From Chitinophagales bacterium (lineage in GTDB: Bacteria > Bacteroidota > Bacteroidia > Chitinophagales > UBA2359), in contig JAHDDV010000016.1 in the NCBI GenBank assembly GCA_020629205.1, forward strand, positions 1 to 33,758: a stretch of DNA of 33,758 bases. The letters run 5' to 3'. Of this stretch, positions 17,379-32,010 are shown piece by piece. The notes below the pieces were generated by a model. That model was not told where the DNA came from. It worked only from the letters and a program-made list of their open reading frames with translations, and made no database searches. Position 1 is the first letter of the stretch. Each line of letters begins with the position of its first letter. The translations under genes were made by a program, and so were the position numbers.

Positions 17379-18359
17379 ATGTCAAATCAAGTAGAGACCC
17401 TACATCTAGCTAAAGTGCTGGAAGATCATGGGCAGGATATGAGTGGGAAGCTAGTTGCGATTACAGGCACCACAAGTGGTACAGGTTTTGTCTGTGCACG
17501 CGAAGTAGCCAGAAAAGGGGCAAAAGTGATCTTGCTCAATCGAGCTAGTGCAAGAGCGGAGAAATCTCTGGAGCAACTACAAGAGGCGGTGCCCGAAGCA
17601 AGCTTTGATGCCATAGAGTGTGACTTGCAGAATTTTGCAAGCGTGAAAGCCGCCATAGAAACAATCAAATCAAAGTATGAGGTGCTCGATGTGCTTGTCA
17701 ACAATGCCGGTGTAATGGCTTTGAGAGATACGGCCACAGTGGACGGATACGGTATACAGATGCAAACCAATGTAATTTCCCATTTTCTAATCACCAAAGA
17801 ACTATTTCCGCTACTGCAAAAAAGCAAGCAGGCCAGAATTGTCAATCACAGTTCAATGGCTCGTTTGGGTCCGCCCCTGGAAGCGAAGTATTTCGAAGCT
17901 AAGGGCGGGCAACTTGGTGGAGATGGTACTGATGAGCAGAATGCAGCTTTTCAAGGACCGAGATGGATGCGCTATCATCAGACGAAGCTTGCGAATTGTG
18001 CCTTCACTTATGGCCTTAAGCAGAAATTGGAAGCAGCCGGAATCGACAATGTAATGCCATTGCTCGCTCATCCTGGTTTGGCTTTGACACAGCTGCAGGT
18101 GACCACAACTGAACATGGAGGCATGGATAAGGAAAGCAATCTGATGGAACGTGCTCAATCAGCTGAAGATGGGGCAACTGGTATCATCAGATGCTGCCTT
18201 GACCCGGAAGCAAAGTCAGGTGATTTTTATGGTCCCACTGCCGGATGGAAAGGCTATCCAGAGCTACTGAGTCCAGAAGATTACCTATACTCGGATTCCA
18301 CCATACAGATCAATTGGGAGGGTTGCGAAAAGGCAGTGGGGGCTTTTGAGATTGCTTAA
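17379..18359 (+). CDS. SDR family NAD(P)-dependent oxidoreductase (protochlorophyllide reductase/retinol dehydrogenase-like)
   Basis: TGTTSGTGF cofactor motif, NNAGVMAL, catalytic YHQTK. Confidence 0.9.
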   Translation: MSNQVETLHLAKVLEDHGQDMSGKLVAITGTTSGTGFVCAREVARKGAKVILLNRASARAEKSLEQLQEAVPEASFDAIECDLQNFASVKAAIETIKSKYEVLDVLVNNAGVMALRDTATVDGYGIQMQTNVISHFLITKELFPLLQKSKQARIVNHSSMARLGPPLEAKYFEAKGGQLGGDGTDEQNAAFQGPRWMRYHQTKLANCAFTYGLKQKLEAAGIDNVMPLLAHPGLALTQLQVTTTEHGGMDKESNLMERAQSAEDGATGIIRCCLDPEAKSGDFYGPTAGWKGYPELLSPEDYLYSDSTIQINWEGCEKAVGAFEIA

Positions 18360-18389: not shown

Positions 18390-18590
18390 TTGCCAGGAGC
18401 TTTGCAGGTGCTCATAGCCCCGATAGAAGTGGAAATGCGGGCAGCTGACAGGGGACTGAACGCCCAGCGATCGAGGCTGCATTAGCAAGACTCGAGCGCT
18501 GGTGCAGTGAAGCCCCTGGCTGCTGCCCGCATTGGAACGGATAGCGGGTAATCCATCGACAGGAGCGGATCTGCTGCGCTCCAAAAAAAT
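18390..18590 (+). repeat. Intergenic structured element, copy E2
   Basis: 5' box AGCCCCGATAGAAGTGGAAATG (from 18416). Long hairpin arms AATGCGGGCAGC (18434-18445) / GCTGCCCGCATT (18522-18533), continued by CAGGGG/CCCCTG, ACTG/CAGT, CCAGCG/CGCTGG and CGAG/CTCG. 3' box GGAACGGATAGCGGGTAATCC...GGATCTGCTGCGCTCCAAAAAAA. Confidence 0.8.
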
Positions 18591-18714: not shown

Positions 18715-21325
<2,611 letters not shown>

Positions 21326-23914: not shown

Positions 23915-23985
23915 GCATTACTAAGGAGAAAAACTGTAAAGAGGCTGCTCAGGATAGAGCAGAGGGAAAGGTCAAAGTTTTTCTT

Positions 23986-24206
23986 TTATTTGGAGCCGGA
24001 CAGATAGGCACGTGGCAAGGACCTTCCCGCTCTACTCTCCAATTCGCCACCTGCCTACCTGCTTCAGCTCACCCTATACTGTCTCTCCGCCTTCGCTACG
24101 AGCCAGTATAGGGCGGCTTTCGCCACGGCATACAGGCGGCTCATTTCCGTTTCGATCGGGGCTGGTTTTCGCCGTCTTTGGCTCGCTCTACTAGGCTACG
24201 GGGTAC
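23986..24206 (-). repeat. Intergenic structured element, copy E3 (minus orientation)
   Basis: On the minus strand: 5' box AGCCCCGATCGAAACGGAAATGAGCC (24163-24138); hairpin CCCTATACTG/CAGTATAGGG (arms 24072-24081 and 24104-24113) with outer arms GCCGCCTG/CAGGTGGC; 3' box GCGGGAAGGTCCTTGCCACGTGCCTATCTGTCCGGCTCCAAATAA. Confidence 0.75.
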
Positions 24207-31784: not shown

Positions 31785-32010
31785 CCACCTACGATGCGTG
31801 AGCGATCGCAGCGGAACGAGCCGCCGGGCAGAACGTCTGAGGCATGCGCTGTGGGGGCTCGACGATAGGAGAGACCTCACAGCGCATTAGCCGAAGCGGA
31901 CTGCACAAGGTGAGTATTAGCGTAGAGCGCGACCTGCACAGCGCTCTTGTATATCCTTCAATTTATACCAATTCTTGGCAGCGCTGTGTAGGGCACGCCC
32001 AAAAAAATTA
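31785..32010 (+). repeat. Intergenic structured element, probable diverged copy E4
   Basis: GTGAGCGATCGCAGCGGAACGAGCC 5' box-like sequence; hairpin ATGCGCTGTG/CACAGCGCAT followed by GAAGCGGACTGCACAAGG; further hairpins AGAGCGC/GCGCTCT and CACAGCGCT/AGCGCTGTG; end GGGCACGCCCAAAAAAATTA. Confidence 0.55.

Follow-up and report, generated by a model that had tools for sequence, protein, structure and literature searches.

The 33,758-nt stretch of DNA analysed here (the window) carries at 18390-18590 a long hairpin framed by two short boxes. Its neighbours are genes for a short-chain dehydrogenase (17379-18359) and for a Fur-family regulator (18715-19128). An earlier note took this element, E2, as one of four members (E1 to E4) of a dispersed family of structured RNA, and guessed that the family might be Flavo-1, the RNA described by Weinberg et al. 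2010 (PMC2864571) and deposited in Rfam as RF01705. The locus raises the question of what the element is, how widely it is dispersed, and in which form, as RNA or as DNA, its structure has been selected.

Flavo-1 elements in the window

The cmscan search against Rfam 15 identified Flavo-1 (RF01705) at 18412-18555 of the plus strand, as had been guessed, with 42.3 bits against the gathering score of 42; the margin is slim, and this is the sole above-threshold Rfam match within the window. Among four loci of the host genome tried for the Rfam threshold (L003, L012, L021 and L030), L021, that is E2, alone passed. E2 was aligned to the full 76-position model with zero non-standard pairs marked, and both hallmarks of Flavo-1 were found, the purine-rich symmetrical internal loops in the alignment of E2 and the covarying apical stem in the set of 53 host copies described below. 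The plus strand folds with -96.8 kcal/mol (z = -5.3; 0 of 200 shuffled sequences were equally stable), and this fold, together with the inverted repeat, bears out the hairpin and flanking boxes at the place where they had been noted, with the full-length bounds corrected to about 18392-18589. We are virtually certain that E2 is a full-length copy of Flavo-1.

All parts of E2 are read on the plus strand. The 5' box (GCCAGGAGCTTTGCAGGTGCTCAT) occupies 18392-18415, with its boundary set from 61 copies of the family, and is followed by the core at 18416-18548, a long hairpin running from AGCCCCGAT to GCGGG that is supported by cmscan, covariation and fold and includes symmetrical purine-rich internal loops and the tip module GGCTGCATTAGCAAGAC. 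The 3' box at 18549-18582, ending with GCGCTCC, was delimited by the alignment of 61 copies and lies mostly beyond the Rfam model, and the element is closed by a terminal A-run (AAAAAAA) at 18583-18589, in keeping with an A-rich end in the 61 copies. E2 is located upstream of a gene pair at 18715-21325, in which a haem peroxidase gene (PF00141, 726 aa) comes directly after that of the Fur-family regulator, an arrangement that recalls PerR-katG.

The anatomy of the family was obtained from the alignment of 53-61 copies from the host genome. Flavo-1 has a larger architecture than the reference model covers, with an element span of about 200-240 nt against the 76-nt model and a fixed order of 5' box, hairpin of about 135 nt with a variable tip inside it, 3' box, GCTCC and A-run. 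The 5' box of about 25 nt shows the consensus GCCACGAGCGAAAGACGGTGAAAAT in the host copies; the family boundary lies about 25-28 nt ahead of AGCC, where the per-position information of 61 copies climbs at about -27, and sequence upstream of about -28 is flat and little conserved. The hairpin, 132-141 nt from AGCCCC to GCGGG, carries purine-rich symmetrical loops near its base, then an inner stem, and ends in a tip drawn from a small set of modules (GGCT...AGAC). The 3' box is similar to the 5' box in the manner of a direct repeat, with GCCACGAGCnAA in the family consensus and GCCACGAGC recurring in this box of host copies, and the six positions directly after GCTCC are A in 77-98% of the 61 copies. 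In other lineages the boxes differ in sequence, and in several of these the 5' and 3' boxes are alike by eye only. A stem joining the two end boxes, to which inspection by eye and the fold of E2 itself had pointed, was rejected after no covarying column pairs were found and the duplex energy within elements proved no better than that between mismatched elements (p = 0.98). A column scan for guide-like pairing of the variable box segments with flanking DNA gave nothing above chance. In G017, one of the relatives, a Flavo-1 copy (L159) has its 5' box split by an inverted-repeat element (AGAACCTGTCTGAAAACC...), and Flavo-1 frames with tips of other palindromes, such as GTAGAGACGCAC...GTGCGTCTAC, were observed among L135-L164.

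Two further Flavo-1 copies are present in the window. E3, at 23985-24188 of the minus strand, is a second full copy in a convergent context, flanked by genes for a SnoaL-domain protein and an S41 peptidase. As noted before, it carries the 5' box of E2 on the opposite strand, with an exact match at 24163-24143; its Flavo-1 match (24167-24019, minus strand) scores 28.5 bits, under the gathering score of 42, and its fold is far more stable than that of shuffled sequence (z = -6.1). Its hairpin had been described as entirely different from that of E2, a statement that does not hold, both tips being of the form GGCT...AGAC and both belonging to common module types of the family. E1, at 1-146 of the plus strand, lacks its 5' part because the contig starts inside it; it shows 72% identity to the 3' half of E2 over 81 nt, and its inner hairpin closely matches that of the L046 copies. 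The grouping of the four elements therefore stood for E1 and E3, which are further copies of Flavo-1, and not for E4, which belongs to a related second family.

Copy number, distribution and folding of one strand

In order to count copies, the 5' box pattern AGCCCCGATNGAANNGGAAAT was searched with up to 3 mismatches, using the reversed pattern as control. The host genome contains 122 + 114 = 236 matches against 3 + 1 = 4 for the control, in full agreement with the dispersed family that had been proposed, and several copies sit at contig ends, as expected because repeats break assemblies. With the same pattern among 60 relatives, five carried 358 (same genus), 523, 332, 64 and 34 copies, and the counts of most others in this family and order were near the control. 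An exact and more general core pattern was found in 76 of the 397 genomes of a phylum sample, against a control close to zero, and almost all sampled members of g60, a genus that we infer to be Flavobacterium, were positive with 2-22 copies. Amplification is patchy and lineage-specific. The gene context is mixed both for host copies (8 ++, 9 --, 9 convergent and 6 divergent) and for Flavobacterium copies (15, 9, 7 and 4, respectively). From this patchy amplification and the lack of a fixed gene orientation, the family behaves as a dispersed repeat, and calling it a structured RNA family does not imply that each copy is a small RNA gene of its own. We hold the repeat or mobile nature of Flavo-1 to be quite probable.

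The Rfam label of the family, "Gene; sRNA", would make each copy an independent gene for a trans-acting small RNA, a reading with which the RNA-like covariation and the conserved wobble pairs described below agree. The sequence upstream of about -28, however, is little conserved, which speaks against a shared promoter; the 3' end is an A-run and not the T-run of a terminator; and the 236 copies are near-equally divided between strands. In a published transcriptome of F. psychrophilum, Flavo-1 matches were found without distinction between the sense and antisense strands of transcripts, and many were untranscribed (PMC9723704). We consider it unlikely that the copies are small RNA genes.

The consensus fold of 53 host copies indicated two-sided changes in 39 of the 49 core pairs, and the proportion of Watson-Crick cells was 84%, against 59% after shuffling of the 3' partners and 18-25% after sliding of the partners. 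Together with the hundreds of genomic copies, this substantiates the structured family with a covarying stem that had been claimed. With the fold computed on the plus strand, which somewhat favours G.T columns, G.T exceeded A.C by 196 to 26 overall and by 77 to 26 within Watson-Crick-majority columns, and wobble was conserved in three columns. Since DNA palindromes indifferent to strand would give about as many G.T as A.C, the excess marks one strand and indicates selection on the plus strand to fold while single-stranded. It is on a single strand, of RNA or of DNA, that the structure acts.

If that strand is DNA, a recombinase would bind and move the folded plus strand as in attC-like or IS200/IS605-like systems, and the RNA would be without a role. 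The constant arms with a freely variable tip recall the logic of attC, target-site duplications were not detected, and the G.T asymmetry is expected for hairpins of single-stranded DNA as well. Conserved wobble in three columns is, however, more natural for RNA; arrays were not found; and orientation is inconsistent with respect to GC skew (23 versus 20, 11 versus 11 and 9 versus 5 in three genomes, and 13 versus 23 in Flavobacterium). The same counts gave no support to an orientation along the replication strand, which the positions in one complete genome had suggested and which was rejected. Movement as a DNA substrate is thus a doubtful reading, and RNA is probably the selected form.

Two classical routes of dispersal were also considered. 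A MITE with terminal inverted repeats and target-site duplication would be in line with the many non-coding, intergenic copies, but its ends here are boxes resembling direct repeats that pair no better than those of mismatched elements, and the score for target-site duplication was not above the null (2.70 versus 2.72). The trivial explanation as a mobile MITE, which the earlier note had named as a possible refutation, is thereby set aside as extremely improbable. Movement of REP/REPIN-type repeats by RAYT, the Y1 tyrosine transposase, would account for dispersed hairpins without target-site duplication and with strand-specific structure, and some relatives do encode Y1 proteins. The host genome (about 91% complete), however, gave 0 matches to Y1_Tnp (PF01797); the high-copy genomes G017 and G041 are without Y1, whereas the low-copy genomes G012, G013 and G007 have it; and an element was found within about 1.5 kb at only 1 of 12 Y1 loci, in the genome of highest copy number. 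With no Y1 in the host and no consistent association in relatives, this route is largely refuted and seems very remote.

A candidate sister family and the kdp locus of Flavobacterium

E4, at 31796-32007 of the plus strand, is a copy of type B, a family of 90 copies in the host genome with 39 in a relative of the same genus and 37 in two genomes from another genus of the family, against 0 for the control. Flavo-1 was not matched by E4 either in the search of the window (E up to 5) or in that of the E4 stretch itself (E up to 1), and other credible Rfam matches were absent; its fold is far more stable than that of shuffled sequence (z = -5.0). After alignment and folding of 31 copies, type B was found to start with GCGTG and to end with CACGCCC plus an A-run, and to be closed by a 5-bp stem, GCGTG/CACGC, that encloses two hairpins, the first Flavo-like and the second, in most copies, of unrelated sequence. 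The overall shape is that of a three-way junction. Outside the wobble columns, G.T is not in excess of A.C (44 versus 42), but the second hairpin does show the excess (21 versus 2). Two tip modules are exactly common to type A and type B. We propose type B as a candidate new RNA or repeat family, sister of Flavo-1.

Long-term retention of a single copy was met in Flavobacterium. When one Flavobacterium copy was used together with its flanks to search 120 g60 genomes, 30 loci were found, which together with two obtained earlier make 32. In all 32 of these kdp loci, from 32 species and the best-matching ones so that more distant species may lack it, the element is at the same place, with kdpC on one side and, on the other, a beta-barrel porin gene (PF07642) and then a kdpD-like gene, all sharing one strand. 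Among the 29 loci parsed out of the 32, the 5' arm is 95.5% identical and the tip 44% identical, and the tips, as read off the listed sequences, are still self-complementary hairpins. At L270, from one species, the inner hairpin is swapped for another palindrome, TCCCGAAGCCTCGGGA. With both arms replaced as a block and the frame kept constant, conversion between copies is suggested, and this is most likely how tips are exchanged. As a separate observation, a 16-bp palindrome, TCCCGAAGC(T/C)TCGGGA, is inserted into, or replaces, parts of Flavo-1 in three species (L269, L270 and L283), and looks much like a small mobile palindrome in its own right. The near-invariance at kdp fits a functional element of the host better than a purely selfish one, and conservation points to a putative function in cis for this copy. 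For Flavo-1 in general, the chance that it plays a cis role at some loci appears about even.

Possible origin and comparison with known systems

As the best explanation, which we favour with some reserve, Flavo-1 would be a non-coding and non-autonomous dispersed repeat, similar to pneumococcal BOX, with folding inside host mRNAs and co-option at some loci. Once single-stranded, the plus strand of the element would fold into one long hairpin. Copies may multiply in bursts by a putative trans-acting machinery, which would recognise the folded strand, the ends (boxes specific to each lineage, and GCTCC-A(n)), or both. Most copies would be neutral or parasitic; those within transcription units would fold in the mRNA and could affect its stability, processing or differential expression, and some may have been fixed for a role in cis, for example the Flavobacterium copy between kdpC and the porin gene. 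The exchange of tips between copies would most likely proceed by conversion. An empty site was not found in the comparison with one relative of the host genus (about 65-70% DNA identity), and transposition is therefore deduced from the bursts of copy number.

A bolder proposal, which we regard as a long shot, is that Flavo-1 and type B are bacterial SINE-like elements. An RNA of strong fold, with end boxes particular to each lineage and a 3' A-tail, would then be copied into DNA by an enzyme acting in trans, without target-site duplication, and tips would be swapped as modules between copies and even between the families. Two RVT_1 matches were identified in the host genome, and the Flavo-1 box was found on neither locus. 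A retron or group II intron partner was rejected, the two loci (one group II-like and one resembling eukaryotic Gypsy) being without elements. The former (L083, contig C429) encodes a reverse transcriptase of group II intron type of 425 aa within a 2.6-kb locus. The latter (L084, contig C396) codes for a Gypsy-like polyprotein, whose Gag and RT regions are of the kind typically seen in eukaryotic retrotransposons, and is probably eukaryotic contamination of the host assembly.

Flavo-1 has been in Rfam for more than 10 years without a function, and the literature that we retrieved treats it solely as an RNA motif. The data presented here show it in another light, as a dispersed repeat that is abundant in some genomes of Bacteroidota, and add end boxes and modular tips that are absent from the model as well as a sister family missed by Rfam. 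The copy in the kdp operon of Flavobacterium offers a concrete locus for probing the function. The elements share with RF01705 the stem with GA-rich internal loops, represented in E2 by the arms AGCCCCGAT and CGGATAGCGGG, but they differ in the 5' and 3' boxes, an inner hairpin longer by 60-100 nt, the tip modules, the terminal A-run and their number, which reaches hundreds.

Integron attC sites consist of conserved arms and a variable terminal hairpin and fold strand-specifically. By analogy, Flavo-1 also has constant arms around a variable terminal hairpin and a strand-specific fold, but it is dispersed, whereas attC sites are arrayed. REP/REPIN elements likewise are extragenic hairpins of hundreds of copies without target-site duplication, and intercistronic REP elements are likened here in their mode of working, the sequence of Flavo-1 being unrelated as far as known; in contrast to them, Flavo-1 is longer, its host is without RAYT, and the RAYT loci of relatives are not flanked by elements. 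The pneumococcal BOX, RUP and SPRITE are small, structured, dispersed repeats, patchy between species, which are considered parasitic and are likely to affect the genes with which they are co-transcribed (PMC3049150). Flavo-1 matches this description in being small, dispersed, strongly structured and patchy, with sequence unrelated as far as known, but it differs from these repeats in its strong conservation at an orthologous operon locus.
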